From Pseudanabaena sp. BC1403 (GTDB lineage: Bacteria; Cyanobacteriota; Cyanobacteriia; Pseudanabaenales; Pseudanabaenaceae): DNA of 64,000 bases. Position numbers and translations under genes: made by a program. Under the pieces are notes generated by a model, which worked only from the letters and a program-made list of their open reading frames with translations, had not been told where the DNA came from and did not search any database. Shown here piece by piece: positions 37,534-61,959 of the stretch. Within the stretch, counting starts at the first letter, position 1. Each line of letters opens with the position of its first letter. Where the stretch lies: NCBI RefSeq assembly GCF_002914585.1, contig NZ_PDDM01000011.1:62001-126000 (forward strand), in the 5' to 3' direction.

Positions 37534-40098
37534 TTACAACCAATTACCCACTAGGACAAAAGATGACCAGAAGAACGGATCACTGAAGTTTTTGTCAGAG
37601 AGAATATAAATTTGGGCTTGACGCAATGCTTCAGCCTTAGAAATTTTACCTAAACCTTGATATAGCTTCACCATTAAACGGGAAGCGACTTTATCCTTCA
37701 CGGGCCAGAGTGTAGCGATCGTCGATCGCGCTCCTGACTTAACGGCTAATCCTGCTAGCCCTAAGACAGCCCGATCATCGCCAGCAGCGGTGTCGCAAGC
37801 ACTCAACACCAGTAAATCTATAGATCCCGAGTCACCTGTCTCTCGACTTTGTAGCATCTCTGACAACTCGCGAATGTTCAACCGTCCATCCCAAGTCAAT
37901 AAGAAAGTATTTTCTTGTTTAGAACTGAACTGACCATGAGTAGCTAAATGAACGACATTGGCACTCTTTGATTCTATCGATTTAGACAAAGTGGTAGGAG
38001 TAAATTCTTGATTTAGGAGTTTACTGCCAGAGGTAGATTTAGAAATTTCTAAGACCTCTGTCTCAACCGCAGGAAGGGATTGGAAGCCATTGCGGGAAGC
38101 GCTAATACCTGCGACAACAGATCGAATTTGTTTCTGTTCCAGTGATTGTGTCGATAGCAGTTTTAGCCCAGGAGACAGAGCTACAGCATAGTTTTCAATT
38201 AGGTATTGTTTCCCGTCATATAGAGCTGCCATGGGAATTTTTCGTAATATTCCATCTAGTACAAAGACTAGGGTTTGTTTGTCCTTTAGTGCTTGACTAG
38301 CTATAGCGGGACGAATCAACCAGTTGTATATTTTCTGGGAAAGTAGTTTCTGACCTGCATTATCTGAGGCAGGGTGGATTGAACCTAAGTACGAACGAAT
38401 GGTTTGCTCGGCTTCAGCTTTAGGGACAGCGCTACTGTAATAAGTCAGTGGTTGCCCTGCGGTAGAGAGAATCACTGCGATCCGATCAGGAAGCATGATC
38501 GCATAAACAACCGCCGCTTTCGTATCAATCTGGTCAATTTGCAGAGGCTGGGAATTAAGGCAAGATTCTCGGAAGAAATTATCTAGTTCCGCAAGTTGGA
38601 GAGCTTCAATCATCTCCCGTGCTTTGACGAGAGATGGTTGGTCTGGATTCTCATCAAGGAGGAGACTGACGAACTCTCTATATACGGGTTCAATGCTTTC
38701 ACGGAAGGAGAATTGCACTTCTTGATTGATGCCCACTAGATCACTACGAAGATTTTGTAGTGCATCAACGGCTTCCCCGTAGGCGGCGATCGCAGCTTGC
38801 CTCTGTCCCTGTTGATGGAGCAAGCGACCTAACTTCCATGCTGACTGAGACAGGATGTTTTTGGCTTGAATAGACTGCGACAGTTGCATGGATTGTTGAA
38901 GGAGACGAATTCCTTCGGTTGATTGTCCGTTATTTGCAACTATTTGCCCCCATTGGGAAAGGATATAGGCTTCAGCTTGCGGATCGTTGAGCTTACGAGC
39001 AGACTGTAACGACTTGTCTAGAAGCTGAATCAGTGGTGTGGCTGGAATGGGCTGACTCTGGGGAGGGAGCTTCGAGAGGTTGCTGACGAGGTTGACGATC
39101 GCATACAGCGAAGCTCGACTAGCGGGAATCTCGCTGAGTTCTTGCTGGATTTGGGGGGCGAGTGTGGCGATCGCTTGGGTCTGCCCAGTATTCACATAGA
39201 TCTGCAATTGGTTGAGTTTTGCCTCAATACTAACGCTGGAGTTAGTAGCAACTTTTTCAGCTTCGATAAAGTATTGCAGCGCTTCGTCAAAGTTGCGAGT
39301 ATCGGCGGCGTTATTGCCTAAGCCAATTAGAATTGGACTTAGCTCATTGGTGGCGTTGAGGTTTTTGGCGATCGCTAAACCCCATGTCAGGGCTTTGTGG
39401 CTTGCCTCATTATCTCCTAGCACGCGCAAGGCATTCCCCACGCTCCGTAAGCCACTCACTTTCAAGAGTGAATCATCACTTTTTTCGAGTTTCTGGTTGA
39501 TGTCATCTAGGGTTTGGCGCGATCGCCGATAAAAACCTAAACTTTGTAGAGCCTGAGCCTGATTGATCTCAGTACCCAGTACGCCTTGCAGATCACCTGC
39601 TTGTTGATAGTAATCTTCAGCCTGCTTCCATGTTTCTACCGCAATTTGCGATTGTCCAATTTGTTGCTGGAGGCTTGCCTTGGTATTCAAAGCCTGCGCC
39701 CAGAGAATTGCATCGACAGGTTTTGCCAAAGTTAGAAGTGCTAAACTTTCGTCAACGGTCTTTTGAGCCGCACTCCATTGATTTAGTTGCTGGTAAGCCA
39801 AAGAGAGATAACTGAGGGTAAGAGCTTGGTTAGAGCGATCACCTTTAGCCCCGTATTCCTGTGCAGCCTGTTGCCAAACTTGAGCTGCTTCAGCAAATCG
39901 CCCCGCATCATACAAATTACGCCCCTGATCTAGACTGCTGGTTGAGGAGACTGCGATCGTGACAGATGGCTCAGCTGGTGCAGTTAGAGAAATAGCATTG
40001 GAATGGTCTACTCCCAAGGAAACTGCTAAGCAGAGTCCTAGAAATCCGAGCAGACTATATCGCACGATCTTTTTTATTAACACTAGATTTATCAACAC
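37534..40098 (-). CDS. Exported TPR-CHAT protein (caspase-like), 854 aa
   Basis: Last gene of the exoprotein array, 15 nt after A7. An N-terminal hydrophobic stretch (YSLLGFLGLCLAVSLGV) looks like a signal peptide. Residues 55-480 are tetratricopeptide-like helical repeats (for example AGRFAEAAQVWQQAAQEYG, NFDEALQYFIEAEKVA). Residues about 520-854 form a CHAT domain, a caspase-like protease fold, with catalytic His721 (HLATHGQ) and Cys768 (VLSACDT) both present. CHAT-TPR genes are often seen beside hemagglutinin-type exoproteins in cyanobacteria. A processing or surveillance role for the secreted proteins is an inference. The start is GTG 40098; GTG 40083 is a shorter option. No ATG is available nearby. 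Confidence 0.9.
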   Translation of the reverse strand: MLINLVLIKKIVRYSLLGFLGLCLAVSLGVDHSNAISLTAPAEPSVTIAVSSTSSLDQGRNLYDAGRFAEAAQVWQQAAQEYGAKGDRSNQALTLSYLSLAYQQLNQWSAAQKTVDESLALLTLAKPVDAILWAQALNTKASLQQQIGQSQIAVETWKQAEDYYQQAGDLQGVLGTEINQAQALQSLGFYRRSRQTLDDINQKLEKSDDSLLKVSGLRSVGNALRVLGDNEASHKALTWGLAIAKNLNATNELSPILIGLGNNAADTRNFDEALQYFIEAEKVATNSSVSIEAKLNQLQIYVNTGQTQAIATLAPQIQQELSEIPASRASLYAIVNLVSNLSKLPPQSQPIPATPLIQLLDKSLQSARKLNDPQAEAYILSQWGQIVANNGQSTEGIRLLQQSMQLSQSIQAKNILSQSAWKLGRLLHQQGQRQAAIAAYGEAVDALQNLRSDLVGINQEVQFSFRESIEPVYREFVSLLLDENPDQPSLVKAREMIEALQLAELDNFFRESCLNSQPLQIDQIDTKAAVVYAIMLPDRIAVILSTAGQPLTYYSSAVPKAEAEQTIRSYLGSIHPASDNAGQKLLSQKIYNWLIRPAIASQALKDKQTLVFVLDGILRKIPMAALYDGKQYLIENYAVALSPGLKLLSTQSLEQKQIRSVVAGISASRNGFQSLPAVETEVLEISKSTSGSKLLNQEFTPTTLSKSIESKSANVVHLATHGQFSSKQENTFLLTWDGRLNIRELSEMLQSRETGDSGSIDLLVLSACDTAAGDDRAVLGLAGLAVKSGARSTIATLWPVKDKVASRLMVKLYQGLGKISKAEALRQAQIYILSDKNFSDPFFWSSFVLVGNWL

Positions 40099-40113
40099 AA
40101 GATTAACTCCAAA

Positions 40114-42609
40114 TTATAGGTTAGATGTAGATATGCCCGCACAGTTAGTGAGAGAGAAAGCTGAAGTAGAAGGCACCGAGTTTGTGGCGTAGATATCTAC
40201 AGTTCCTTTGGCATTAGTCCGCCAGCCAGTAGCTTCGACAATCGGCGGAGTGGCAGTCTCAGATTGACTTACAGCCGTTGAGTTTGTGGCTTTATGGAAA
40301 GCAGAGGGATCGCGGATATCTGTCCAAGGATGGTTACTACTGCGGCGATCGCTAGGATCTTCAGGCAACCCACCTCTGCCTGTGGCGACAAACCGACTAT
40401 TGCCATAGGTTCTACAACCTTGGACAATTCGCTGGCTCGGATCATCGATATTGCTAGGTAGCTCGATTAACCCTGCGGTGGGAGTAAAAGCAAGGTTGCT
40501 AATACTTACCGTGCCGCTTAGCCCAAATTGTGAGCTTGCTGTGATGTCATTTTCTGATGTCAATTGCGGACGAAATTTCAGTCCAAATAATCCCTGCGTA
40601 GTGATATTGATATTCCCACCTGATCCTCGCACAGCATTAGCAATAATGTCACTGTTTTCAAATCCAGCAATAACTGGGGCACTGATTTTAATGTTCCCGC
40701 CATTGCCATTACCACTTGCTGTAGCTGAAATCACACTATTGTGACGCAGCAGCAATAGTTTATCTGCGTGTAAGTCAATGTTGCCGCCATTGCCAGACTC
40801 AGTTTGTGCTTGGATCGTGCCTTGGCGGTCTAATTGAATTGTGCTGGCAATAACCTTGATATTTCCACCATTGCCAGTACCTTGATTGGTAACACTTACT
40901 GTCCCACCATCCGTCAGAATTAGTTTTGGTGTAGTAACTGTCACATTACCCGCATCAGCACTCAGAATATTGGGTAGATTAAATAGCTGTTTGATCAGCG
41001 GTTCTGGACGCAATACAGAAGAGTTAATGCTGCTATTGTTCAATCGACTGCGATCGCTAATTTGGATAGATTCTGCCGCATTAATATCTAGATCTCCAGC
41101 CCGACCAACTAAGAATGAAGTTGTGGCGATCGCACCTCCATTTAAAATTTGTAAGCGATTGGTATTTAACGTCAAAGCTTTAGAATTGCCAGTTCCATAG
41201 GTAATGGCGCTAATATTGCTGTAGAGTCCACCAAAGTTATCACCAATCACTGTGGTCTCTGCGTTGTTGATGGTGACTTGACCACTGGAGCCAGCACTAA
41301 ATGCGATCGAAGACAGTGCTGCACCACCAGATATCACTAAACTATTACCATTTACTAAGATGTCACCTGCGGCTTGATTCCCACGAGTGCTAGTAGTCAA
41401 GCTGGTTACACCTGTTGGATTGACATTAGAAGAACCAGACAATTCAATTGCTGTTGCGTCAATGGTAATATTGCCACTGGAACCTGCTCCAAATGCATTG
41501 TTATTTATTCCTGCGCCCTGCTGGAGAGTTAGCCGAGGGGTAGTAATACTAACGTTTGCACCCTTCCCCGTACCCAAAACTTCAGAACGAATGCCGCTAC
41601 GAATCTGGGCATTAGTTGTTGTGCCGATGATATCGATCGCCTCTGAAGCCTGTAAGTGAATGTCACCACTGGGAAGATTGCCAAGGTTTTTGGACAATAC
41701 CAATGAGCCATCAGTAAATTGCATCCTTCGTCCTTGTATCTGCACCGAACCCGAATTGACTCCACTCACATCCAGTAGGGATTTTTGAGTAAGCTGAATA
41801 TCACCAAAGCGTTGATTGCCATATCCCAGCATATAGCCACTTGTAGTTGGGATCAGATTGATCCGTCCAGCATCGCTGATGCTACCTAGTTCTATGCGCC
41901 CTTGTTCAGCAGTTAGAGTTGCTCCATTCAGATGTAAATCCCCTCCCACCAACGCTAGCGTGTTTTTTGGATTGACTCGCAGTTCGCTGGCACTGGGAGT
42001 CCGAATAAAGGGAGCTAGACTATTGACAACTGTTAAGCCATAACCTGTCCCTTGTACAGTGATCGGCGCTGCATTAGCTGGGAGGTCTAACCCAATAGGA
42101 GCGTTTACGGTTAAGAGAGGATTAGCTGTGAGATCGTTAGCACTAAACTTTACTCCATCACTAAAAATGACGCTATTAGCTGTAGTTCCTACAAACGATC
42201 CACCGATATTTAGTCTTGCATTGGGACCAAAAATAATCCCATTGGGATTGAGCAGAAACAAACTCACAGGATTGCTATTATTTGTGGTTTGAATCATGCC
42301 ATCAATGTTGGAGACATTGCCTCCCGTCACTCGACTAAAAATGGTCGTAATATTCGGTGTGCTAACTAGATTAAAAGTAGCAGAACCACCCGTCGGTACT
42401 GAGAATTGACTAAAACTATGGAATAGATTTGCCCCACTATTGGGCTGATTACCATTGGTAATCGTAAAGTTAAGATTATCAGGACTAGTGACTGTAGTAG
42501 ACAGCGTGCCATCGGCTGTCACACTCTGAGCAGAAGCGGTTATGGGTAAAAGCATTCCCAAGAACAGAACGCTAGAACCACACCACAATAGTTTTTGACT
42601 AAAATTCAT
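40114..42609 (-). CDS. TPS exoprotein A7 (filamentous hemagglutinin N-terminal domain protein), 831 aa
   Basis: Seventh and last exoprotein of the array. Signal peptide MNFSQKLLWCGSSVLFLGML...ASA, then the TPS secretion domain with LLNPNGIIFGPNARLNIGGSF. The core contains RIELGSISDAGRINLIP and IQGRRMQFTDGSLVLSKN and resembles A4 more than its immediate neighbours. The constant C-terminal module begins near GLFGLKFRPQLTSENDITA and includes GCRTYGNSRFVATGRGGLPE; it ends with a tail unlike the others (YATNSVPSTSAFSLTNCAGISTSNL). The start ATG overlaps the A6 stop by 11 nt and is preceded by AAAGAGGT 8 nt upstream, so translation is coupled to A6. Confidence 0.92.
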   Translation of the reverse strand: MNFSQKLLWCGSSVLFLGMLLPITASAQSVTADGTLSTTVTSPDNLNFTITNGNQPNSGANLFHSFSQFSVPTGGSATFNLVSTPNITTIFSRVTGGNVSNIDGMIQTTNNSNPVSLFLLNPNGIIFGPNARLNIGGSFVGTTANSVIFSDGVKFSANDLTANPLLTVNAPIGLDLPANAAPITVQGTGYGLTVVNSLAPFIRTPSASELRVNPKNTLALVGGDLHLNGATLTAEQGRIELGSISDAGRINLIPTTSGYMLGYGNQRFGDIQLTQKSLLDVSGVNSGSVQIQGRRMQFTDGSLVLSKNLGNLPSGDIHLQASEAIDIIGTTTNAQIRSGIRSEVLGTGKGANVSITTPRLTLQQGAGINNNAFGAGSSGNITIDATAIELSGSSNVNPTGVTSLTTSTRGNQAAGDILVNGNSLVISGGAALSSIAFSAGSSGQVTINNAETTVIGDNFGGLYSNISAITYGTGNSKALTLNTNRLQILNGGAIATTSFLVGRAGDLDINAAESIQISDRSRLNNSSINSSVLRPEPLIKQLFNLPNILSADAGNVTVTTPKLILTDGGTVSVTNQGTGNGGNIKVIASTIQLDRQGTIQAQTESGNGGNIDLHADKLLLLRHNSVISATASGNGNGGNIKISAPVIAGFENSDIIANAVRGSGGNINITTQGLFGLKFRPQLTSENDITASSQFGLSGTVSISNLAFTPTAGLIELPSNIDDPSQRIVQGCRTYGNSRFVATGRGGLPEDPSDRRSSNHPWTDIRDPSAFHKATNSTAVSQSETATPPIVEATGWRTNAKGTVDIYATNSVPSTSAFSLTNCAGISTSNL

Positions 42610-45136
42610 TAAATACTACCTCTTTAAAAAAATTTGTTGCGATCGCTAAGAATCCTGCACAATCAGTTACAGGTGTTCCTCTTGCTGCGTTATTGGTAGC
42701 ATAGATATCTACCTCACCCTTCGCATTTAATTGCCAACCCGTAGCTTCCACAATAGGTGTTTTCGCATTCTCAGATTGCGGTGTAGTTGCTAAAGCGGCG
42801 GGATTGCGGAAAGTGGAAGGATCGCGGAGATCGTTCCAAGGATGGGAGCTATTACGGCGATCGCTTGGATCTTCAGGCAACCCTCCTCGCCCTGTGGAGA
42901 CAAATCGACTATTGCCATAGGTTCTACAACCTTGGACAATTCTCTGGCTCGGATCATCGATATCGCTAGGCAGTTGAATCAATCCAGCGCTCGGAGTAAA
43001 AGCGAGGTTATTAATATTTACCGTGCCACTCAATCCAAATTGCGAACTTGCCGTGATGTCATTCTCAGGGGTCAATTGCGGACGGAATTTCAGTCCAAAT
43101 AAACCTTGTGTAGTGATACTGATATTCCCACCTGATCCTCGCACCGCATTCGCAATAATGTCACTGTTCTCTATTCCCACAATCACAGGTGAGTTAATTG
43201 TCAAGTTACCACCATTCCCATTACCTGCTGCGGTGGCAGAAATCAGGCTGTTGTGACGTAGCAGTAAAAATGATTGCAAGTTTAAGTTAACATCTCCTCC
43301 ATTACCAGAAGCAGTTGAGGCTAAAATACTACCTTGATTGTCTAGAAAAATTGAATTAGCATTAATCTGCACATCTCCTGCTCTACCAGATCCATCGTTT
43401 TTAACTGCAACATACGCTCCATCAGTAATGCGTAACGATGGGGTGTTAATTATGAGTGAACCCGAATCACCACTGGGAATTGGAGGCAATCCATAGATTT
43501 GTTGAGTGGCTGCATCCAAAATCTCAGCCGATGAAATGATGCGGCTAGGTACAATTGAATCAACCTGCCGACCCTGAACGTCCACGGAATTCGACGCATT
43601 GATGCTTACATTACCCGATGTTCCCTTACCAGCAACAATAGACCCTACTACTCCACCATCTCGAATCACTAAGCGGGCGGTGTTGATCAAAAGATCTCCA
43701 GTATCTCCAAGAGCGGTGCTTGCTAAAAGGATTCCACTCGGTGACACTAGCTGGCTGGGGATGTATTCACCAACTTCGATCAAATCTTGAGCTTGGACTC
43801 GAATGTTTCCTGTCTTTCCAGTGCCAAATGATATACTGCTCAAAATGCCACGACGCAGAAGCCTCAGATTGCTCGTGGAGAGTGTAATATTGCCTGCATT
43901 AGCGGAGTTAAAGGTGATTGTGTAGATCGAGGATGGGTTCGCTGGGCTAGTGGGATTAAAGCCATCTAGCAAGATTGAGTCGGCAACCTTGGCTATAATA
44001 TTTCCCCCCGATGCTGGAGTATACATACCAGTAATGATATTTCCGCCATCTTGGATGGATACTTGCTTGGCGGAGATGGCAATATCTCCCACTTGCCCAG
44101 TACCTAAATTGTCAATTTTGATATAACTTGCATAGCTGCCGTCGCGGACTGTACCAGTCAGATTTAGCGAACCTGCTGCCTTAATAGTAATTCCTCCAGA
44201 GGCTTGGGAACCCAAGTTTTGCAGCAAAATAGCGGAACCTTCGCTCAAGCTGATATTCTTCCCATGTACTTGGATAGAACCCTTCGCACCACTGGCATCG
44301 AGCAGCGATTGCTGGGCAAGATGAACATCTTGGAATTGCCGCACCGATGAGTAGTCTCCTACCCACCCTGTAGACGTAGCTTTGAGTCCGACCTGTCCAT
44401 CGCTGACACCACTAACTTCCAGATGTCCACCTCCATTCGTGGTAATAATACCACCTGATAGATTCACCTCGCCACCAATCAGCGCCAGAGTATTACCTCC
44501 GTTAACTTGTAACCCAACAGGACTTTGGCTGCGATCGGTGGGGGTAAAAATCCTATCGATTAAGCGATGTCCCGTATTCTGCACAGTAATTCCCTTGGGA
44601 TTTTGGGCAAAATCTAGACCGAGTGGGGCATTCACTGTCAGTAAAGGTGAAGCTGATGGATTCACGGCGCTAAATTCTATTCCATCAATAAACTTGACGC
44701 TATTTGCCGTCGTAGCGATAAACGATCCACCGATATTGAGACTGGCATTGGCTCCAAAGATAATTCCATTGGGATTGAGCAGAAACAAACTCACAGGATT
44801 GCTGCTATTTGTGGTCTGAATCAAGCCATCAATGTTAGAAACACTACCTCCCGTCACCCTACTAAAAATGGTCGTAATATTCGGTGTGCTAACTAGATTA
44901 AAAGTAGCAGAACCACCCGTGGGCACTGAGAATTGACTAAAACTATGGAATAGATTTGCTCCACTATTGGGCTGATTACCATTGGTAATCGTAAAGTTAA
45001 GATTGTCGGGACTGTTGACTGTTGTTGAGAGCGTGCCATCGGCTGTCACGCTCTGAGCAGAAACATTTGTGGGTAAAAGCATTCCCAAGAATAGAAAGAT
45101 AGAACCACACCACCATAGTCTTTGACTAAAATTCAT
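42599..45136 (-). CDS. TPS exoprotein A6, 845 aa
   Basis: Signal peptide MNFSQRLWWCGSIFLFLGML, TPS domain with LLNPNGIIFGANASLNIGGSF. The core is the sister of A5: both have NGGGHLEV, then STGWVGDYSSV, and a QNLGSQASGGITI-type strand. Further core segments are distinct (YIKIDNLGTGQVGDIAISA, VQGRQVDSIVPSRIISSAE). The C-terminal module is nearly the same as in A5 but reads NINNLAFTPSAGLIQLPSDID where most copies have NISNLAFTPTAGLIELPSNID. A one-base frame difference at the end replaces the usual early stop with the tail FFKEVVFNEF, so the stop overlaps the A7 start. The start ATG overlaps the A5 stop by 11 nt. Confidence 0.92.
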   Translation of the reverse strand: MNFSQRLWWCGSIFLFLGMLLPTNVSAQSVTADGTLSTTVNSPDNLNFTITNGNQPNSGANLFHSFSQFSVPTGGSATFNLVSTPNITTIFSRVTGGSVSNIDGLIQTTNSSNPVSLFLLNPNGIIFGANASLNIGGSFIATTANSVKFIDGIEFSAVNPSASPLLTVNAPLGLDFAQNPKGITVQNTGHRLIDRIFTPTDRSQSPVGLQVNGGNTLALIGGEVNLSGGIITTNGGGHLEVSGVSDGQVGLKATSTGWVGDYSSVRQFQDVHLAQQSLLDASGAKGSIQVHGKNISLSEGSAILLQNLGSQASGGITIKAAGSLNLTGTVRDGSYASYIKIDNLGTGQVGDIAISAKQVSIQDGGNIITGMYTPASGGNIIAKVADSILLDGFNPTSPANPSSIYTITFNSANAGNITLSTSNLRLLRRGILSSISFGTGKTGNIRVQAQDLIEVGEYIPSQLVSPSGILLASTALGDTGDLLINTARLVIRDGGVVGSIVAGKGTSGNVSINASNSVDVQGRQVDSIVPSRIISSAEILDAATQQIYGLPPIPSGDSGSLIINTPSLRITDGAYVAVKNDGSGRAGDVQINANSIFLDNQGSILASTASGNGGDVNLNLQSFLLLRHNSLISATAAGNGNGGNLTINSPVIVGIENSDIIANAVRGSGGNISITTQGLFGLKFRPQLTPENDITASSQFGLSGTVNINNLAFTPSAGLIQLPSDIDDPSQRIVQGCRTYGNSRFVSTGRGGLPEDPSDRRNSSHPWNDLRDPSTFRNPAALATTPQSENAKTPIVEATGWQLNAKGEVDIYATNNAARGTPVTDCAGFLAIATNFFKEVVFNEF

Positions 45137-47672
45137 TGGCTACTACCTCTTTAAAAAGCTTTGGTGCGATCGCTAAGAATCCCGCACAATCAGTTACGGT
45201 TGTTTCTCTAGCTACGTTATTAGCAGCATAGATATCTACCTCACCCTTCGCATTTAGTTGCCAACCCGTAGCTTCCACAATAGGTGTTTTCGCATTCTCA
45301 GATTGCGGTGTAGTTGTTAAAGCGGCGGGATTGCGGAAAGCAGAAGGATCGCGGAGATCGTTCCAAGGATGGGAGCTATTACGGCGATTACTAGGATCTT
45401 CAGGTAACCCTCCTCGCCCTGTGGCGACAAACCGACTATTGCCATAGGTTCTACAACCTTGGACAATTCTCTGGCTCGGATCATCGATATTGCTAGGTAG
45501 CTCGATTAACCCTGCGGTGGGAGTGAAAGCAAGATTGCTGATATTTACCGTGCCGCTTAGCCCAAATTGCGAACTTGCTGTGATGTCATTTTCTGATGTC
45601 AATTGCGGACGAAATTTCAGTCCAAATAATCCCTGCGTAGTGATGTTGATATTCCCACCTGATCCTCGCACAGCATTAGCAATAATGTCACTGTTTTCTA
45701 TTCCCACAATCACAGGTGAGTTAATTGTCAAGTTACCACCATTACCATTACCCGCAGCAGTGGCAGAAATCAAGCTATTGTGACGCATCAACAGATTGCT
45801 TTGGAGGTTTAAGCGAATATCTCCTCCGTTTCCAGAGGCGGTAGAGGCGACAATACTACTTTTGCCATCTAGAAACAGAGAGTTGGCATTAATCTGTATA
45901 TTCCCAGCAAGCCCTGGACCATCATTTTTGACGCTCACAGCCGCCCCATCAGCAATGCGTAATGATGGCGTATTAATGGTGAGAGAACCCGCATTACCAG
46001 TGGGAATAGCAGGTAGTATAAAAGCTGCTTGAGTCTCTGGACTAAGAAGTTCAGCGTTTGAAGTAATGCGAGAGATTACCCCAGCCGCATTACCCTCAGT
46101 ACCACACCCTTGGATTTCGATGGACTTTGAAGCGTTAATTTCCACGCTACCTGCTGAACCAGTGGCAACGGTAGAAGATCCCAGAGCTGCTCCCCCTTGA
46201 AGCACTAATCTAGAGGTGTTGATGACTAAGCTATTAGCATTACCAGAACCCTGAGTAAAAGTAGTTAGCGAACTTTCTGAAAATGCCAGAGGATTGAAAC
46301 CTGCAATTTCGATTTGATCTGTTGCCTTCACTTGGATTGTGCCAGTGTCTCCAGAGCGTAAGGCTACAGAAATAATCTGACCAGAATCTAGAACCCTGAG
46401 AATTCTGGTGGATAACATGATATTCCCTGCATTGCCGCTATCTGCTGAAAATGTTGTGAGCGCAGTATAAATGGCTGGGTTGTTGCTGTTAAAGCCAATG
46501 ACCTCGGTCGAGCCGCTCACATTTGCGGTAATATTCCCACCTGCTGTTTGCGTCCGAGTTCTAGTCAAAATTCTGGCTCCATCTTGGAGGGATAACTGGG
46601 CAGCAGAGATGGCAATATCTCCAGTCCGTCCTGTGCCGAAATTTTGGATTTGCATGAAACTTCCCAAGTCACCATTGGCTGTATTCCCTGCCAAATTGAG
46701 GGAGCCAGTGGCATTAACCGTAATTCCTCCAGACGGTTGCGTTCCTAAGTTTTGGAGCAACAAAGAAGAACCCTCAGTCAAGCTAATGTTTCCTCCTTGC
46801 AATCGGATGGAGCCGTTACTACCGCTAGCGTCCAGTAGTGATTCTTTCGCAAGATGAATATCGTTAAATTGCGGCACAGATGAATAATCGCCAACCCAAC
46901 CCGTAGAAGTAGGCTTGAGTACCACTTGCCCATTACTAACACTACCCACCTCTAGATGCCCACCGCCATTAGTGGTGACAACGCCACCAGAAAAGTTTAC
47001 AGCACCGCCAATCAATGCCAGCGTATTATTTGCACTGATTTGTAATCCGATTGGGGTATTGATGTTACTGGGCGTACCAAAGCCAGTAACATCGAACAAC
47101 TTATTTCCCTGACCCTGCACAGTAATTGTTCCTGCATTGCTACCCATATTTAAGCCAATCGGCGATGCAATTGTGAGCAGTGGTGATGCTTGGGGGGTAA
47201 TGGCACTAAATTCCGCGCCATCAGCAAATTTAATACTATTTGCTGTAGTTCCTACAAACGATCCACCGATATTTAGACTGGCATTGGGACCAAAAATAAT
47301 CCCACTGGGATTGATTAAAAACAAACTCACAGGATTGCTATTATTTGTGGTTTGAATCATGCCATCAATGTTAGAAACATTGCCTCCCGTCACCCGACTA
47401 AAAATGGTCGAAATATTTGGTGTGTTAACTAGATTAAAAGTAGCAGAACCACCCGTGGGTACTGAGAACTGATTAAAACTATGGAATAGATTTCCTCCAC
47501 TATTGGGCTGATTACCATTGGTAATCGTAAAATTGAGATTGTCGGGACTGGTGACTGTAGTAGAAAGTGTGCCATCGGCTGTCACGCTCTGAGCAGAAAC
47601 ATTTGTGGGTAAAAGCATTCCCAAGAATAGAAAGCTAGAACCACACCACCATAGTCTTTGACTAAAATTCAT
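45126..47672 (-). CDS. TPS exoprotein A5, 848 aa
   Basis: Signal peptide with MNFSQRLWWCGSSFLFLGML, TPS domain with NPSGIIFGPNASLNIGGSF. The beta-helical core has strand repeats rich in G-N-I/L-x-I (GGNITANVSGSTEVIGF, SGNAGNIMLSTRILRVL) and an isolated Cys (EIQGCGTEGNA) not seen in the other copies. Sister of A6 in the first half of the core. C-terminal module typical, with TGRGGLPEDPSNRRNSSHPW; the tail is extended (LFKEVVANEF) by the same one-base shift as in A6. Begins 14 nt after the A4 stop with the shared junction sequence and AAAGAGGTAG ribosome-binding site. Confidence 0.92.
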   Translation of the reverse strand: MNFSQRLWWCGSSFLFLGMLLPTNVSAQSVTADGTLSTTVTSPDNLNFTITNGNQPNSGGNLFHSFNQFSVPTGGSATFNLVNTPNISTIFSRVTGGNVSNIDGMIQTTNNSNPVSLFLINPSGIIFGPNASLNIGGSFVGTTANSIKFADGAEFSAITPQASPLLTIASPIGLNMGSNAGTITVQGQGNKLFDVTGFGTPSNINTPIGLQISANNTLALIGGAVNFSGGVVTTNGGGHLEVGSVSNGQVVLKPTSTGWVGDYSSVPQFNDIHLAKESLLDASGSNGSIRLQGGNISLTEGSSLLLQNLGTQPSGGITVNATGSLNLAGNTANGDLGSFMQIQNFGTGRTGDIAISAAQLSLQDGARILTRTRTQTAGGNITANVSGSTEVIGFNSNNPAIYTALTTFSADSGNAGNIMLSTRILRVLDSGQIISVALRSGDTGTIQVKATDQIEIAGFNPLAFSESSLTTFTQGSGNANSLVINTSRLVLQGGAALGSSTVATGSAGSVEINASKSIEIQGCGTEGNAAGVISRITSNAELLSPETQAAFILPAIPTGNAGSLTINTPSLRIADGAAVSVKNDGPGLAGNIQINANSLFLDGKSSIVASTASGNGGDIRLNLQSNLLMRHNSLISATAAGNGNGGNLTINSPVIVGIENSDIIANAVRGSGGNINITTQGLFGLKFRPQLTSENDITASSQFGLSGTVNISNLAFTPTAGLIELPSNIDDPSQRIVQGCRTYGNSRFVATGRGGLPEDPSNRRNSSHPWNDLRDPSAFRNPAALTTTPQSENAKTPIVEATGWQLNAKGEVDIYAANNVARETTVTDCAGFLAIAPKLFKEVVANEF

Positions 47673-47686
47673 TGGCTACTACCTCT

Positions 47687-50203: not shown

Positions 50204-50217
50204 TGAATACTCCATTT

Positions 50218-54189: not shown

Positions 54190-54203
54190 TGAATAATACC
54201 TCT

Positions 54204-56954
54204 TTAAAAAGCTTTGCTTGCGATCGCTAAGAATCCCGCACAATCATTTACGGTTGTTTCTCTAGCTAAGTTATTAGCAGCATAGATATCTACCTCACCC
54301 TTCGCATTTAGTTGCCAACCCGTAGCTTCCACAATGGGTGTTTTCGCATTCTCAGATTGCGGTGTAGTTGCTAAAGCATTGGGATTGCGGAAAGCAGAGG
54401 GATCGCGGATATCTGTCCAAGGATGGGAGCTATTACGGCGATTACTAGGATCGTCAGGCAACCCTCCTCGACCTGTGGCGACAAATCGACTATTGCCATA
54501 GGTTCTACAACCTTGGACAATTCTTTGGCTCGGATCATCGATATTGCTAGGTAGCTCGATTAACCCTGCGGTGGGAGTAAAAGCAAGGTTGCTAATATTT
54601 ACCGTGCCGCTTAGCCCAAATTGCGAACTTGCCGTGATGTCGCTCTCTGATGTCAATTGCGGACGAAATTTCAGTCCAAATAAACCTTGCGTAGTGATGT
54701 TGATCTTCCCACCTGCTCCTTGTACAGCATTAGCAGTGATGTCACTGTTTTCCGATAGAACCGCTACGATAAATGCTGAATTGATGTTGATATTACCTCC
54801 TGTAGCATTACCTGTTGCATTAGTGTTAATTTGACTGCCGTGCCGCAGCAGCAGCACATCAGAGTCAATCGAGATATTGCCGCGATCGCCTGCGGAAACT
54901 TCCGATCGCAGACTGCCCCCGTAATCAAGTTGAACGCGAGAAGCCCTAATGCTTAAGTTACCCGCATCGCCACCACCTGTATTACTAACAGAAATTTCCG
55001 CCCCATTGCGTACGTCAAGCCGATTACTATTTATACTTATCGAACCAGCATCAGATTTTGTAGAAGAAATTGCATTAATACTACTGGGGAGTTGCCGACC
55101 GTTAATTAGCGATTGAGAGATGCCCTGTACGTCAACATTTTTAACGATCAGGTTAATGCTGCCAGCAGCACCGTTACCATCAGTAGATGAGGTGATTTGT
55201 CCACCGTTGAATATATTTAAGAGATCGCTTTTGATATTAATATTGCCACCCTGTCCGATCGCATTTGCCCCAACAGCCACAGTGATTCCACTGACAGTCT
55301 GACTAAAACTATCAATGACGGGATCGCTCACACTCACTTCTGTGGCTTGGATATTTATACTTCCTGCCACACCATTGCCAACAAGCGCACTAGAAATTGT
55401 GCCACCATTAGCGAGTACCAATTTCCCAGTTGAGATCGATACATTTCCACTATTTCCTTCCGCAAAAGGTTGGATTGAACTAGTCACAGCACTTGTAAAG
55501 CTTGATGGATTTGCGCCTCGAATTTCTAGACTCTGAGTAGCTCGGATGGAGATATCCCCAGCCGACCCAGTAGTACTTGGTTGCAAAACACCTGGAAAAT
55601 TGAGACCTACCAGATCTGTGCTGATATGTGCACCATCCAGCATCTGTATTCGATCCGCCTGAACAGAAATATTCCCACCAATATTGCGATTACCACTGGT
55701 AATCAGAGTGGTAATCGAACTAGGACGGAAAAAAGGAATACCAAAAAAAGGATTAGGAAATGGATTGTAGCCACTTAATTTGACATCTTTAGCAAGAATG
55801 GAAATATTGCCAGTGGAGGAGTCATTGAAAGTTACGAAAGAATTAGTCGCGAAAGAATAAACGCCATTATTAACTGATTGCAACCAAGATCCATTCGCAA
55901 TTCGTAAAGACTCGGTTTCTACAGTAATATCACCTGCTCTAGCGCCATTCCCCAATACTGTAGTAGATAGACCAGGAGTCTCATATTGCAGTGCATCCGT
56001 TGCCCCCAGCAAATCCACAAATTCTGTGGTTTTGACATTAATACCTTGCCCTTGACCTCCCGCTCCAGTGTCAGAAGAAATATTTGAGCCATTCTGAAGT
56101 GTTAGCCCTCGCCCACGAATTACGATCGCGCCGCCGTTGAGTCCACTCGTATCAATTAGAGAGGATTTACTCAGTGTAATTTGACCCCAGTCAGCAGTAG
56201 TTGAGGCACTAGTTAATTGCAGTTGAGTGGCATTTGTGAACTTAACTTCAGCATTTTGTACTGCCCACAGTTCCACTCGTCCATCTGGATTCGATAGACT
56301 AGCGTTAGTCAAACTAATCTCTCCACCTACTAACGCGATGGTCTGAGCTTTGAATAGTTGGGGCGATCGCAAAAAGAAATTAGGCGCAGGTGTTCCCTGT
56401 ACTTCAATTGGTGCAGCATTGGTTCCGAGAATTAGCCCTACAGGAGCATTCACAGTTAACAGAGGATTAGCTGTGATATCGCTAGCACTAAACTTTACTC
56501 CATCACTAAAAATGACGCTATTTGCTGTAGTTCCAACAAATGATCCACCGATATTGAGCCTTGCATTGGGACTAAAAATAATCCCACTGGGATTGAGCAG
56601 AAACAAACTCACAGGATTGCTGCTATTTGAGGTCTGAATCAAGCCATCAATGTTGGAGACACTACCTCCCGTCACCCGACTGAAAATCGTTGTAATATTC
56701 GGTGTGCTAACTAGATTAAAAGTAGCAGAACCACCCGTCGGTACTGAGAATTGACTAAAACTATGGAATAGATTTGCTCCACTATTGGGCTGATTACCAT
56801 TGGTAATCGTAAAATTAAGATTGTCGGGACTAGTGACTGTAGTAGACAGCGTGCCATCGGCTGTCACAGATTGTGCTGAGACATTTATGGGTAAAAGCAT
56901 TCCCAAGAAAAGAAAGCTAGAACCACACCACAATAGTCTTTGACTAAAACTCAT
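54204..56954 (-). CDS. TPS exoprotein A2, 916 aa
   Basis: ATG 56954 begins the shared leader MSFSQRLLWCGSSFLFLGML. TPS domain with LLNPSGIIFSPNARLNIGGSF (Ser where others have Gly-Pro context). The core is a sister of A1: VELWAVQNAEV, IRGRGLTLQNGSNI, TTEFVDLLGATDALQ and RVQLDYGGSLRSEVSAGDRG all have direct counterparts there. Both carry NSAFIVAVLSENSDITANAV before the constant end, unlike the IVGIENSDIIANAVRG of A4-A6. End module PDDPSNRRNSSHPW; tail DCAGFLAIASKAF. Starts 14 nt after A1. Confidence 0.92.
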   Translation of the reverse strand: MSFSQRLLWCGSSFLFLGMLLPINVSAQSVTADGTLSTTVTSPDNLNFTITNGNQPNSGANLFHSFSQFSVPTGGSATFNLVSTPNITTIFSRVTGGSVSNIDGLIQTSNSSNPVSLFLLNPSGIIFSPNARLNIGGSFVGTTANSVIFSDGVKFSASDITANPLLTVNAPVGLILGTNAAPIEVQGTPAPNFFLRSPQLFKAQTIALVGGEISLTNASLSNPDGRVELWAVQNAEVKFTNATQLQLTSASTTADWGQITLSKSSLIDTSGLNGGAIVIRGRGLTLQNGSNISSDTGAGGQGQGINVKTTEFVDLLGATDALQYETPGLSTTVLGNGARAGDITVETESLRIANGSWLQSVNNGVYSFATNSFVTFNDSSTGNISILAKDVKLSGYNPFPNPFFGIPFFRPSSITTLITSGNRNIGGNISVQADRIQMLDGAHISTDLVGLNFPGVLQPSTTGSAGDISIRATQSLEIRGANPSSFTSAVTSSIQPFAEGNSGNVSISTGKLVLANGGTISSALVGNGVAGSINIQATEVSVSDPVIDSFSQTVSGITVAVGANAIGQGGNINIKSDLLNIFNGGQITSSTDGNGAAGSINLIVKNVDVQGISQSLINGRQLPSSINAISSTKSDAGSISINSNRLDVRNGAEISVSNTGGGDAGNLSIRASRVQLDYGGSLRSEVSAGDRGNISIDSDVLLLRHGSQINTNATGNATGGNININSAFIVAVLSENSDITANAVQGAGGKINITTQGLFGLKFRPQLTSESDITASSQFGLSGTVNISNLAFTPTAGLIELPSNIDDPSQRIVQGCRTYGNSRFVATGRGGLPDDPSNRRNSSHPWTDIRDPSAFRNPNALATTPQSENAKTPIVEATGWQLNAKGEVDIYAANNLARETTVNDCAGFLAIASKAF

Positions 56955-56968
56955 TGGACAATACCTCT

Positions 56969-59641
56969 TTAAAAAGTTTTGCTTGTAATCGCCAAGAATC
57001 CTGCGCAATCAGTTATAGGCGTTCCTATAGCTGCATTATTGGCAGCATAGATATTTACCTCACCCTTCGCATTTAATTGCCAACCCGTAGCTTCTACAAT
57101 GGGCGGTGCTGAATTCTCCGATTGCTTTTCGGATTGCTTGACAGTTGCTAAAGCGACGGGATTGCGGAAAGCAGATGGATCACGGATATCTGTCCAAGGA
57201 TGGGAGCTATTGCGGCGATCGCTAGGATCTTCAGGCAACCCTCCTCTGCCTGTGGCAACAAACCGACTATTGCCATAGGTTCTACAACCTTGGACAATTC
57301 GCTGACTCGGATCATCGATATTGCTAGGTAGCTCGATTAACCCTGCGGTGGGAGTAAAAGCAAGGTTATTAATATTCACCGTGCCGCTTAGCCCAAATTG
57401 CGAACTTGCCGTGATGTCACTTTCTGAGGTCAATTGCGGACGGAATTTTAGCCCAAATAAACCTTGCGTAGTGATGTTGATCTTCCCACCTGCTCCTAGT
57501 ACAGCATTAGCCGTGATGTCACTGTTTTCCGATAGAACCGCTACGATAAATGCTGAATTGATGTTGATATTACCTCCTGTAGCATTACCTGTGGCATTGG
57601 TGTTAATTTGGCTGCCGTGCCTCAGCAGCAACACATCAGAGTTAATCGAGATATTGCCGCGATCGCCTGCGGAAACTTCCGATCGCAGACTTCCCCCATA
57701 ATCAAGTTGAACGCGAGAAGCGCTAACGCTTAAGTTACCTGCATTTCCACCACCAGTATTACTAACAGAAATTTCTCCACGATTAAGAACATCAAGCCGA
57801 TCGCTAACTATATTGACTGAACCCGCATCAGATTTTGTAGAAGAAGTTGCCGCGATCGTGCTGGGCAGAGTTTGACCATTGGACAAGGTTTTAGAGACAC
57901 CATCTACCGCAATGTTTTTGACTTGCAGATTGATACTACCCGCATTACCATTTCCATTGGTTGAAGAGGTGATTTGCCCACCATCAAAAAGCCGTAACGT
58001 ATCAGCCGTTAAGGTAATATTTCCCCCTGAGCCAACCGCATTAGCCCCCAGAGAAACCGTAATACCGCCAGGTAAGCTGCTGAGACCATCAAGTTCTGGC
58101 TCGCTCACTGTCACATCCTTAGCCCTAATGGTGATATTCCCCGCTTTTCCTGTTCCCGATAGCGTACTCCGAACAGTCCCCCCGTTAAAGATTTGCAAAC
58201 TGCCAACATCAATCGAGATGTTTCCTGCTTCCCCCGTTGTTGCTCCAATTCTCGAACTCACTCCAGATAGCAGTTTAGCGGGTGTGAATCCCGATATTAC
58301 AAGGCTCTCAGTTGCTCGGATCGAGATGTCTCCAGCCTTACCTGTAGGAAGAACAGGACTTACGACAACCAAAGCCGTACTGATAATTCCACCATCTTGC
58401 ACGCGAATTCGATCTGCATCGATGGTAATCTTGCCACTCTCATTATTAGTGCCAACAAAGAGGTTGGCGTTTATAGCGGTAGGCGTTTCAAGAAATGGAT
58501 TAGATCCCAATACATCCACATCCGCAGCTTTAACGGTCACATCTCCCGATCGCGAATTGTCACCAGTAGAGGAGGACTGAAGCCAAGCGCCATTACTCAA
58601 CCGTAAACTCCCTGTCTCAACGGTCACATCTCCAGCTCGCCCAGTTGCAGGAGCGCCAAACAATATACCCACAGAAGTCGAAATGCCAGGAGCAAATTGA
58701 CCTGCTTGGGAAGCTCCCAGCAGATCAACAAATTCTGTAGTTTGGACGGTGATCCCCTTACCTTGCCCAGCCGAAGTAATAGAACGAATATTTGAGCCAT
58801 CTTGCAAGGTCAGCCCGCGTCCACGGATGTTGATTGCTCCGCCATTGATTCCACTTGCATCAACTAAGGAGGTTTGACTGAGTGAAATATTTCCCCAATT
58901 CACAATACTAGGGGCAGAAGTAAGTTGCCATTTCGCTTGATTGTTTATGGCGATTTGGGCATTCTGTGCTGCCCATAGTTCCACTTGTCCATCTGGAGCG
59001 ATCAGGTTTGCGCCTGTCATATTGATTTGACTGCCTACTAAAGCCAAGGTATTTCCCTGAGCCACTTGCAGGGTAGCCATTTTCTGTAAACTAATTGCTC
59101 CCGCATTTGCCTCAAGGTTTAGCCCAATGGGAGCATTCACAGTCAACAGAGGATTAGATGTGAGATCGTTGGCACTAAACTTAACTCCATCACTAAAAAT
59201 GACGCTATTTGCTGTAGTTCCTACAAACGATCCACCGATATTTAGACTGGCATTGGGACCAAAAATAATCCCACTGGGATTGATTAGAAACAAACTCACA
59301 GGATTGCTGTTATTTGTGGTCTGAATCAAGCCATCAATGTTGGAAACATTGCCTCCCGTCACCCGACTAAAAATCGTCGAAATATTCGGTGTGCTAACCA
59401 GATTAAAAGTAGCAGAACCACCCGTGGGCACTGAGAACTGACTAAAACTATGGAATAGATTTGCTCCACTATTGGGCTGATTACCATTGGTAATCGTAAA
59501 GTTAAGATTGTCAGGACTGGTGACTGTTGTAGAAAGTGTGCCATCGGCTGTCACAGATTGTGCTGAGACAGAATAAGTTAGGGATAAATGCCCCAGAAAT
59601 AGACAGCCACCTAAACAAGATAAACGAAAAATAGAAGTCAT
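56969..59641 (-). CDS. TPS exoprotein A1 (first of the array), 890 aa
   Basis: TpsA-type protein predicted to cross the inner membrane by Sec and the outer membrane through the divergent TpsB, then fold as a right-handed beta-helix on the cell surface or in the medium. The TPS domain (about 35-180) includes LINPSGIIFGPNASLNIGGSF, the NPxGI secretion motif. Unlike A2-A7 its signal peptide is MTSIFRLSCLGGCLFLGHL, so the leader was not exchanged with the others. ATG 59641 has GGGGAG 8 nt upstream; GTG 59662 is less likely. The core is similar to A2. The constant C-terminal module carries two Cys (GCRTYG and DCAGF) that could form a disulfide or processing site. The transcript probably starts in the 431-nt spacer to tpsB. 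Confidence 0.93.
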   Translation of the reverse strand: MTSIFRLSCLGGCLFLGHLSLTYSVSAQSVTADGTLSTTVTSPDNLNFTITNGNQPNSGANLFHSFSQFSVPTGGSATFNLVSTPNISTIFSRVTGGNVSNIDGLIQTTNNSNPVSLFLINPSGIIFGPNASLNIGGSFVGTTANSVIFSDGVKFSANDLTSNPLLTVNAPIGLNLEANAGAISLQKMATLQVAQGNTLALVGSQINMTGANLIAPDGQVELWAAQNAQIAINNQAKWQLTSAPSIVNWGNISLSQTSLVDASGINGGAINIRGRGLTLQDGSNIRSITSAGQGKGITVQTTEFVDLLGASQAGQFAPGISTSVGILFGAPATGRAGDVTVETGSLRLSNGAWLQSSSTGDNSRSGDVTVKAADVDVLGSNPFLETPTAINANLFVGTNNESGKITIDADRIRVQDGGIISTALVVVSPVLPTGKAGDISIRATESLVISGFTPAKLLSGVSSRIGATTGEAGNISIDVGSLQIFNGGTVRSTLSGTGKAGNITIRAKDVTVSEPELDGLSSLPGGITVSLGANAVGSGGNITLTADTLRLFDGGQITSSTNGNGNAGSINLQVKNIAVDGVSKTLSNGQTLPSTIAATSSTKSDAGSVNIVSDRLDVLNRGEISVSNTGGGNAGNLSVSASRVQLDYGGSLRSEVSAGDRGNISINSDVLLLRHGSQINTNATGNATGGNININSAFIVAVLSENSDITANAVLGAGGKINITTQGLFGLKFRPQLTSESDITASSQFGLSGTVNINNLAFTPTAGLIELPSNIDDPSQRIVQGCRTYGNSRFVATGRGGLPEDPSDRRNSSHPWTDIRDPSAFRNPVALATVKQSEKQSENSAPPIVEATGWQLNAKGEVNIYAANNAAIGTPITDCAGFLAITSKTF

Positions 59642-60072: not shown

Positions 60073-61959
60073 ATGAATTTTTGCAATCTTTTGTTGTGTA
60101 ATTATCTAGCTCGTACTTTGCCATTCATGAGATTTACGATTATTTTAATATTTGTAAGTTTGTCCTCAGAATTATCTGCCGTCGAGGTAAGTGAGGCTAA
60201 ATCTAAATTTAATGAACAAGGCTTATTATCACGACCTGTAAGTACAAAGCTCGACACTTCACGATTTCCGATTGAGCAAAGCCCCCTTGAACAGCCATTG
60301 CTCACGGCGCAGAGGGTTGAGCCTAATATTTCTAATCCTTTACAACGGATTAATCCCTCTCCTAGTCAACCTGTTCTACCCCCAGAGACGCTGCCTCCAG
60401 CACCAACTTTAGATCAATCAATACCTAAAGTCCCTGAAGATACAGAGACACGTCCAAATACATTTCCAGCTAAATTTTTTGTCAAACAAATTGAGGTAAC
60501 TGATAGCACGGTATTTAGTACCGAAGAACTGGCTGTAGTGACTAAGCCTTTTATAGGCAGGGAGTTGACATTTGCTGAGTTATTACAGGTGCGATCGGCT
60601 ATTACTCAGCTCTATACAAGTCGCGGTTATATTTCTTCAGGTGTAATTATTCCTCCCCAAACTTTGTCGAATGGGGTGATCAAAATGCAAGCGATCGAAG
60701 GCAGTTTGGAAGAGATTAAAGTTACAGGGTTACAACACCTTAATCCCGATTATATTCGTAGTCGTTTGCAATTAGCGGGGGCTAAACCTTTAAATATCAA
60801 TCAATTACTTGAAGGACTACAATTACTAAAGCTAAATCCCTTAATTGAAAACATTTCTGCTGAGTTGCAAACAGGCGATCGCCCTGAAACTCGGATTTTG
60901 TTAGTGGAAGCTAAGGAAGCCAAGAATTTCAGTGTTATTCCTACTATTGATAATGGGCGATCGCCTAGTGTCGGTAGTTTCCGCCGTCAAATCCAACTAT
61001 CTCATGCTAATTTGTTTGGACTTGGTGATGGATTGAAATTGGGATATACCAACACCGATGGGAGTAATGGCTTTGATTTTAGCTACACTTTGCCGATTAA
61101 TCCCAGCAACGGTACGATCCAATTGGCGGCTGGCACTACGACTAGCAATGTAATTGAATCCCCATTTGATGTACTCAAAATTTCGGCTGTCTCGAAATAT
61201 TACGAAGCCACCTATCGCCAACCACTGATTTTACGCCCTCAAGAAGAACTAGCTGTGGGGCTAACATTCTCTAGGCAAGAAAGCCAAACTTCACTAGGAA
61301 TTGACAATATTGGGCCTTTCCCCATTTCTTCTGGTTCCGACAGCCAAGGTAGTACCCGTGTCTCCGCATTGCGATTCTTCCAAGAATGGACTAGGCGAAA
61401 TGAGCAATCTGTAATGGCTTTTCGCTCTCAATTTAGTCTTGGGCTTGGTGGTCTATTCAATGCCACCGTCAACCAGCAAGAAGTGCCTGATAGCAACTTT
61501 TTGTCATGGCGAGGACAAGGTCAATGGGTACAGCTACTTGCGCCCGATACGCTTTTTCTATTGCGGGGAGATATTCAAATTGCCAATCGCACGTTGCTAA
61601 CTTTGGAGCAATTTGGATTGGGGGGAGTCAGTACTGTTCGCGGCTATCGCCAAGAAGCCCTTCTAACAGATAATGGCGCACAAATTTCTGCCGAAGTTCG
61701 TTTGCCAATCTTTAAAGATGTTGCATCTAAAGAGGTTTTGCAACTAACCCCATTTGTTGATGCAGGAACTGGTTGGAATAGCAATGGCAGAAATCCTAAT
61801 CCTAATACTTTGGTGGGGCTGGGTGTTGGACTATTGTGGCAACAGGGGGAAAATTTATCTATCAGACTTGATTGGGGCGTTCCTCTAGTTAATGTGCCAT
61901 CACAGGGCAATAGCTCACAAGAAAGAGGCTTATATTTTTCTGCTACTGCACGTTTTTAA
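60073..61959 (+). CDS. TpsB/ShlB/FhaC-type outer-membrane transporter, 628 aa
   Basis: Outer-membrane pore that recognises TPS domains and secretes the exoproteins. After a leader (either from ATG 60073 or from ATG 60127, which starts a cleaner signal peptide MRFTIILIFVSLSSELSA) and a Pro-rich linker (90-132), POTRA1 spans about 134-210 (FFVKQIEVTDSTVF, RGYISSGVIIPPQ) and POTRA2 about 211-281. The barrel covers 285-628 and has the conserved loop-6 tip VRGYR (522-526), followed by GAQISAEVRLP. It ends in Phe (YFSATARF), as outer-membrane proteins do. It is the only TpsB in the window and is divergent from seven TpsA genes, so it probably serves all of them. Confidence 0.94.
   Translation: MNFCNLLLCNYLARTLPFMRFTIILIFVSLSSELSAVEVSEAKSKFNEQGLLSRPVSTKLDTSRFPIEQSPLEQPLLTAQRVEPNISNPLQRINPSPSQPVLPPETLPPAPTLDQSIPKVPEDTETRPNTFPAKFFVKQIEVTDSTVFSTEELAVVTKPFIGRELTFAELLQVRSAITQLYTSRGYISSGVIIPPQTLSNGVIKMQAIEGSLEEIKVTGLQHLNPDYIRSRLQLAGAKPLNINQLLEGLQLLKLNPLIENISAELQTGDRPETRILLVEAKEAKNFSVIPTIDNGRSPSVGSFRRQIQLSHANLFGLGDGLKLGYTNTDGSNGFDFSYTLPINPSNGTIQLAAGTTTSNVIESPFDVLKISAVSKYYEATYRQPLILRPQEELAVGLTFSRQESQTSLGIDNIGPFPISSGSDSQGSTRVSALRFFQEWTRRNEQSVMAFRSQFSLGLGGLFNATVNQQEVPDSNFLSWRGQGQWVQLLAPDTLFLLRGDIQIANRTLLTLEQFGLGGVSTVRGYRQEALLTDNGAQISAEVRLPIFKDVASKEVLQLTPFVDAGTGWNSNGRNPNPNTLVGLGVGLLWQQGENLSIRLDWGVPLVNVPSQGNSSQERGLYFSATARF

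Follow-up and report, generated by a model that had tools for sequence, protein, structure and literature searches.

Seven complete two-partner secretion exoprotein genes in tandem, with one pore gene and a TPR-CHAT gene in Pseudanabaena sp. BC1403, and the recurrent clustering of such genes with DUF928 and CHASE2 genes

The window analysed here is a 64-kb stretch of the draft genome (5.5 Mb) of the freshwater cyanobacterium Pseudanabaena sp. BC1403 (contig NZ_PDDM01000011.1; C11:62001-126000). It carries seven tandem genes for exoproteins of two-partner secretion (TPS), tpsA1 to tpsA7 (proteins A1 to A7), followed on the same strand by a gene for a TPR-CHAT protein and flanked by one divergent pore gene, tpsB. 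This seven-gene array is a large example of a recurrent arrangement, of which smaller ones were found in Trichormus M33_DOE_039 (six TpsA), Nostoc LEGE 06077 (five), Rivularia MS3 and Oscillatoria SIO1A7 (three each), and in Pseudanabaena G008 (C27, L180-L181; five TpsA of about 1450-1700 amino acids (aa), one of them split into two open reading frames (ORFs), with divergent TpsB, CHAT last, then DUF928). To judge from comparison with related strains, cassettes have very probably been exchanged by recombination among positions of the array, and we regard it as close to certain that TpsA, CHAT, DUF928 and CHASE2 together compose a module.

The layout that had originally been predicted from this DNA was recovered in full (Table 1). 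Gene A1 lies nearest tpsB (start at 59641) and A7 nearest CHAT; A1-A2, A2-A3, A3-A4, and A4-A5 are separated by 14 nucleotides (nt) each, A5-A6 and A6-A7 overlap by 11 nt, and CHAT follows A7 after 15 nt. Each of the seven ORFs is complete, with a start codon, a hydrophobic signal-peptide-like N-terminus, a PF05860 domain (163-214 bits, cut-off 33.5; E-values from 1e-47 to 4e-63), and no internal stop. The single divergent TpsB of the original prediction is confirmed for the array region, where tpsB, with its POTRA_2 domain and ShlB/Omp85 barrel, is the sole TpsB found. The locus thus combines the TPS domain, the TpsB with POTRA and Omp85-type barrel, and the beta-helix passenger of type Vb secretion. 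Fold matches of TpsA (Foldseek) are HxuA, EtpA, HMW1, and FHA; an AlphaFold model of A4 (pLDDT, predicted local distance difference test, 81.6) has a beta-helix at residues 30-708, and on predicted fold A1 to A7 are true TPS exoproteins. Across the whole genome, profile search gave 16 TPS domains, 31 CHAT matches, and 10 POTRA_2 matches.

At the protein level A1 to A7 are about 80-97% identical near their ends (the first ~160 positions, most of the final ~150) and 25-40% on average in the middles, where A1/A2 and A5/A6 make closer pairs (57-58%). The middles form a repetitive beta-helix that cannot be aligned reliably all together, and BLAST and pairwise profiles were used to decide which of them are orthologous. 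The suggestion that the array encodes a repertoire of surface proteins fits what is seen, namely differing beta-helix exoproteins with near-identical TPS domains, as a single pore would lead one to expect. Conserved ends with divergent middles recurred in every array that was inspected.

Two named records stand nearest, one from Pseudanabaena biceps PCC 7429 and the other from Pseudanabaena sp. 'Roaring Creek' (86% identity of CHAT, tblastn), and both have tpsB orthologues. The PCC 7429 locus is orthologous on the tpsB side (neighbouring kinase gene 84% identical in nucleotides), but its array differs in content and order, with about nine TpsA genes across four contigs, one of them broken near its end. 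Its first gene has the leader and signal peptide of tpsA1 in front of an A4-like middle (87-94% nucleotide identity to A4, about 45% to others; middles 92% identical); its second gene has an A1 middle behind a leader of internal type; and its last gene, next to CHAT, joins an A3-like middle to the last-position tail of A7. Three PCC 7429 genes, including the one that adjoins CHAT, have middles 73-84% identical to that of A3. In Roaring Creek, a separate assembly, the last gene likewise has an A3-like end of the middle with a last-position tail, and the A1 middle is closer to its counterpart there (84% identity) than to A2 (58%). Because the same middles stand behind other position-locked ends in PCC 7429, cassettes appear to have been shuffled by recombination. 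Synonymous divergence (dS) of the C-terminal ends is mostly 0.2-0.5 between array paralogues; against Roaring Creek it comes to about 0.5-2.6, and in trees the ends largely cluster by genome. Compared with PCC 7429, dS is 0.27-0.38 for cassette middles, 0.62 for CHAT, and 0.61 for TpsB; the low values of the middles hint at exchange between lineages. In one PCC 7429 array gene (L189:1-250) the C-terminal region is lost at a junction with other coding sequence, perhaps a mobile element.

The linkage of TpsA to CHAT was followed in two surveys. In eight genomes (seven Pseudanabaena, this one included, and one of another genus) every TPS and CHAT domain was listed; 47 of the 62 TPS domains have a CHAT partner, 15 within the same ORF and 32 with CHAT downstream on the same strand (two fusions with a second CHAT closer by were counted as fused, by ORF identity). 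From the density of CHAT domains, about 2% of TPS domains would be expected by chance to have CHAT within 10 kb. The second survey was anchored on the 80 nearest CHAT relatives in named cyanobacterial genomes (Nostocales, Oscillatoriales, Leptolyngbya, Crocosphaera, others); TpsA lies within 600 nt upstream of CHAT at 35 loci and further up on the same strand at nine more (44/80). The TpsA-to-CHAT order is accordingly conserved in other cyanobacteria, as had been anticipated, and annotated plasmids carry matching TpsA-CHAT genes. Fusions span 802 to 5111 aa, three of them in the one-contig genome G017, and both Pfam domains were confirmed in all five fusions scanned. Two belong to the present genome (1455 aa, G000:C9:75486-79853, L004:7487-11854; 1969 aa, G000:C2:263413-269322, L005:7414-13323); each has an adjacent TpsB and keeps His and Cys, and neither DUF928 nor CHASE2 was found beside them. 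By these natural fusions a functional link between TpsA and CHAT is indicated. Two side observations concern the pore: a TpsB at G000:C2:317974-319719 (L018:5975-7720) has no TpsA in its fetched stretch and could serve the C8 TpsA, likewise without TpsB in its stretch; and next to one intact TpsA-CHAT pair TpsB is in three ORFs (L069, L105, L133; Pseudanabaena ULC187bin1, G011:C36).

The CHAT protein is modelled with TPR helices at residues 55-457 and a C-terminal CHAT domain (pLDDT 82). The caspase fold and the catalytic His and Cys of CHAT peptidases are both present; H717 and H721 (HLATHG) and C768 (SAC) are invariant in 50 aligned sequences, and the N-terminus is of hydrophobic signal-peptide type, in agreement with the intact dyad and signal peptide read from the sequence at the outset. 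The protein is predicted to be an exported cysteine peptidase, and CHAT genes, which are plentiful in these cyanobacteria, mostly encode export-type N-termini where inspected. VIA-align matched Csx29/TPR-CHAT with Z 19-23 (about 480-580 residues) and separase with Z of about 19-20; Foldseek places the transmembrane anti-sigma factor DdvA first, ahead of Csx29. As both Csx29 and separase are peptidases, their fold likeness is counted in favour of CHAT acting as a peptidase on TpsA. Human separase cuts after Arg; we know of no substrates of cyanobacterial CHAT proteins. Elsewhere in the genome, tandem groups of TPR-CHAT genes (G000:C38, C8, C3, C52; L006, L008-L010, L015, L016) mostly have signal-peptide-like N-termini and no TPS genes nearby.

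A candidate site on TpsA lies in its C-terminal region, for which a profile was built from the window and the CHAT-anchored loci. In the A4 model a low-confidence tail (residues 710-795), past the beta-helix, holds the motif TGRGGxPxnP and is followed by a short hairpin; the tail is probably unstructured. Two cysteines of the region are invariant in 40 aligned sequences. Within the eight genomes the profile matches 21 TpsA loci, 17 with a separate CHAT and none a fusion; the association with separate CHAT (17/21 loci versus 6/30) has p 3.5e-5 on hand-tallied counts. Among TpsA with the region, 102 of 117 have the motif G[R/K]GG; none of the 11 fused TpsA and none of the 26 others has it. Of 103 region-bearing TpsA whose CHAT is no more than 12 kb away, 100 have Arg or Lys at the motif. 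For a peptidase of the CHAT fold, such a conserved basic residue in a flexible tail would be a fitting target. Orthologous TpsA of three genomes have Ser (TGSGG) in place of TG[R/K]GG (L148:14060-16579; L149:2920-5433; L199:7990-10494), and no CHAT, DUF928, or CHASE2 was found near them within the fetched stretches.

DUF928 and CHASE2 genes make up the other half of the module. Among the 80 CHAT loci DUF928 is found in 59 and CHASE2 in 50; 20 have DUF928 (17 also CHASE2) with no TPS domain in the fetched stretch. In the Pseudanabaena regions fetched, DUF928/CHASE2 accompany 21 of 39 regions that have TpsA with separate CHAT, and none of the 15 fused or the 18 CHAT-less ones (21/39 versus 0/33, Fisher 1e-7). 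Five further CHAT-less stretches do hold CHASE2/DUF928; these are parts of arrays, or of loci for which no CHAT was detected or whose CHAT is beyond the stretch or the contig end. All four loci with TpsA and separate CHAT in the present genome have both genes, with CHASE2 proteins of different type: GGDEF on C31, cyclase on C1, kinase on C8, and kinase-receiver at the present locus. Outputs overall are GGDEF, cyclase, kinase, and AAA_35; receptor output differs among loci while CHASE2, DUF928, CHAT, and TpsA remain clustered. DUF928 and CHASE2 genes likewise belong to the cluster carried by plasmids of Pseudanabaena ABRG5-3 and Planktothrix. The array locus of PCC 7429 (L188:6157-19999) adjoins a second TPS locus, and kinase, CHASE2, DUF928, and CHASE2 genes lie between the two TpsB genes.

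The operon-like character proposed for the array is upheld by its spacing: gaps of 14 nt, overlaps of 11 nt, and the 15 nt before CHAT leave no space for separate promoters. Promoter and terminator scans were at or below chance (against shuffled sequence) inside the array and near tpsB, so that neither a single promoter nor multiple promoters are demonstrated by them. No RNA in the 64-kb window was matched by Rfam. Downstream of CHAT, a palindrome is no more than a possible terminator of the array, since the repeat is dispersed through the genome, where its arm CGTAAAGTTGCGCCCC occurs in six or more palindromic copies. The tpsA1 leader and signal peptide, listed in Table 1 as the position-1 type, are common to the first array gene of PCC 7429, in which they precede the A4-like middle.

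Table 1 Features of the array locus. Positions are those of the window unless preceded by C11 (contig positions); E, E-value.
Feature	Position	Strand	Description
tpsA1	56969..59641	-	890 aa; opens array; position-1 type signal peptide (MTSIFRLSCLGG...), TPS domain, beta-helix middle, conserved C-terminal region; PF05860 E 1.1e-55
tpsA2	54204..56954	-	916 aa; PF05860 E 4.3e-56; middle 58% identical to A1
tpsA3	50218..54189	-	1323 aa; long middle, own type; PF05860 E 1.6e-47
tpsA4	47687..50203	-	838 aa; PF05860 E 3.6e-63
tpsA5	45126..47672	-	848 aa; PF05860 E 1.6e-60; middle 57% identical to A6
tpsA6	42599..45136	-	845 aa; PF05860 E 1.7e-59
tpsA7	40114..42609	-	831 aa; closes array; C-terminal end (STSAF..NC.GI.T.NL) of last-position type; PF05860 E 1.2e-59
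TPR-CHAT gene	37534..40098	-	854 aa; predicted exported caspase-fold peptidase; PF12770 E 1.4e-61
tpsB	60073..61959	+	628 aa; outer-membrane pore; divergent from array; POTRA_2, ShlB, Omp85
Response regulator-histidine kinase gene	62144..63508	-	454 aa; beside tpsB; PF00072, PF00512, PF02518; syntenic in PCC 7429, 84% nt identity
CHASE2-histidine kinase-receiver gene, 3' part	63513..64000	-	whole gene 947 aa, extends to C11:128356
DUF928 gene	C11:128471-129568		next after CHASE2 kinase gene, outside window
20-bp palindrome	37441..37487	.	downstream of CHAT; dispersed repeat

We propose that the locus serves a variable display of surface fibres, and that an exported separase/Csx29-like peptidase trims or monitors these fibres and reports via CHASE2; for this scheme the arguments seem to us evenly balanced. 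A1 to A7 would be made from one transcript and, with their near-identical TPS domains, exported via the single TpsB, each folding as a beta-helix with a differing middle. The TPR-CHAT protein, judged by its N-terminus, would go to the periplasm or the cell surface, where it could cut TpsA, most likely in the tail at G[R/K]GG or close by; the cut would complete, release, or report secretion. That CHAT acts on TpsA in any way is, on the sequences compared, about an even call. DUF928 (predicted exported) and CHASE2 may relay the surface state to an output that varies by locus (histidine kinase, diguanylate cyclase, nucleotide cyclase, or AAA), as their conserved clustering suggests; a reporting role of CHASE2 falls somewhat short of an even call. 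Comparison between strains indicates that the array grows and changes via homologous recombination in the conserved ends, by which middles change position and ends are homogenised. The most inclusive version is offered as tentative, and is doubtful as a whole: a recombining beta-helix library with one TpsB, its members cut at the basic tail motif by a dedicated, exported, separase-like TPR-CHAT, with this activity read by DUF928 and CHASE2 with exchangeable outputs. It would amount to outside-in protease signalling through variable sensors whose cassettes strains trade with one another; recognition of phage, kin, or surfaces is a possible use.

Several observations weigh against the proposal. 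Conserved ends alone could reflect purifying selection on the export signal, and only dS and the mosaic genes support recombination; the PCC 7429 and Roaring Creek assemblies are drafts with contig breaks in the array, exact repeats reach 157 nt in PCC 7429 and 90 nt here, and some joins could be chimeric; and the lower dS of middles could come from an unequal substitution rate, not from exchange between lineages. At least seven TpsA of C1 type have a separate CHAT but neither the C-terminal region nor the motif. At four TpsA loci the C-terminal region is present with no CHAT in the vicinity, and two of these loci (L132, L141) keep GRGG. Furthermore, 18 regions with TpsA and separate CHAT are without DUF928 or CHASE2, some of them shortened by contig ends. 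Given the C1-type loci, not every such CHAT can have the motif as its substrate, and G[R/K]GG was rejected as a site for all CHAT-linked TpsA.

The leading alternative, which we consider unlikely, takes CHAT for a periplasmic sensor or scaffold of the CHASE2 pathway that binds ligands through TPR-CHAT and does not act on TpsA, the latter being an adhesin whose expression the pathway serves. It agrees with the rank of DdvA as top fold match, with a link of DUF928/CHASE2 to CHAT about as tight as that of TpsA (DUF928 without TPS at 20/80 loci), and with the want of a common tail motif in C1-type TpsA that have CHAT. Yet the invariance of H717, H721, and C768 is hard to explain without catalysis, none of the 15 TpsA-CHAT fusions adjoins DUF928 or CHASE2, and the tail motif is limited to one TpsA class, mostly with separate CHAT. 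CHAT could instead serve quality control in the periplasm, as a peptidase that degrades TpsA which is misfolded or was not exported, without a specific cutting site and without a part in signalling. Its tightly spaced gene at the operon end, the generic binding surface of TPR, and the risk that many large beta-helix proteins could jam a single pore would all suit such a role, but the conserved basic tail motif would then be superfluous, fusions to a degrader are hard to reconcile, and the CHASE2/DUF928 partners are left unexplained; we judge it improbable.

For the array itself, ordinary tandem duplication could suffice if ends are held by constraint on the TPS and C-terminal domains and middles drift, with no exchange of cassettes. 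Conserved ends with divergent middles in every array examined, and the functional constraint on TPS domains in all TpsA, are what duplication would give; it is nevertheless quite improbable in view of the C-terminal synonymous divergence, lower among paralogues than to relatives, of mosaic genes with a position-locked leader or tail and a foreign middle, and of the different order and copy number in PCC 7429. Recombining tpsA-related cassettes are also known from contact-dependent inhibition and from the meningococcal TPS island (PMC5422565, PMC3848433), and TpsA could then be CdiA-like toxin carriers with immunity genes. This is very improbable: the conserved C-terminus and variable middle found here are the opposite of contact-dependent inhibition, gaps of 14-15 nt or overlaps leave no space for immunity genes, and no toxin domain was matched (Pfam, NCBIfam). 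The array was accordingly not assigned to the CdiA/CdiI systems, its C-terminus being conserved and immunity genes absent.

With two-partner secretion as known from FHA, HMW, HxuA, and EtpA, the locus shares the TPS domain, the beta-helix passenger, and the TpsB with POTRA and barrel; it differs in having seven full TpsA per TpsB and CHASE2/DUF928 partners. Csx29 (Craspase) and separase resemble the CHAT protein in their TPR or helical repeats, CHAT/caspase-fold domain, and His-Cys dyad (fold match over 500-580 residues for Csx29), but the present CHAT is predicted to be exported and is linked to TPS secretion, not to CRISPR or cohesin; no Cas7-11/gRAMP-type gene was found among the window ORFs scanned, the search being confined to these. 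In type IX secretion PorU, a peptidase of caspase-like fold, acts on a C-terminal domain common to many exported proteins; a caspase-like-fold peptidase working on a common C-terminal region would be a likeness by analogy only. FHA is matured by SphB1, a subtilisin autotransporter encoded outside the fha locus (PMC5422565); processing of TpsA by a protease, as proposed here, would be the shared feature, and the type of protease and the place of its gene the difference. In the meningococcal tpsA/tpsC island tpsA-related copies also recombine within one locus, but there shorter tpsC cassettes swap 3' ends with tpsA, rarely as was found, and intervening ORFs occur, one of them giving immunity (PMC3848433); here middles are swapped between complete genes. 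Membership of such a cassette island was rejected, all seven genes having a start, a signal-peptide-like N-terminus, and a TPS domain. No description of a TpsA-CHAT(-CHASE2) cluster was found in the open-access literature, a weak absence as subscription papers were outside its scope, and the terms CHAT, CHASE2, and DUF928 are absent from a study of conflict systems (eLife 52696). TPS, CHAT peptidases, and CHASE2 receptors are each known singly; their cluster is apparently undescribed, on this weak ground.

If the proposal is true, this would to our knowledge be the first maturation protease encoded inside a TPS operon, and no earlier array is known to us in which complete TpsA genes shuffle. 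From the fusions and the conserved clustering TpsA emerges as a concrete candidate substrate for CHAT, and the CHASE2/DUF928 linkage offers a role for the unstudied DUF928 and an input for CHASE2 receptors. In a phage-resistant substrain of Nostoc a gene for a TPS-domain protein is mutated (PMC10811720), which hints at a benefit of fibre variation.

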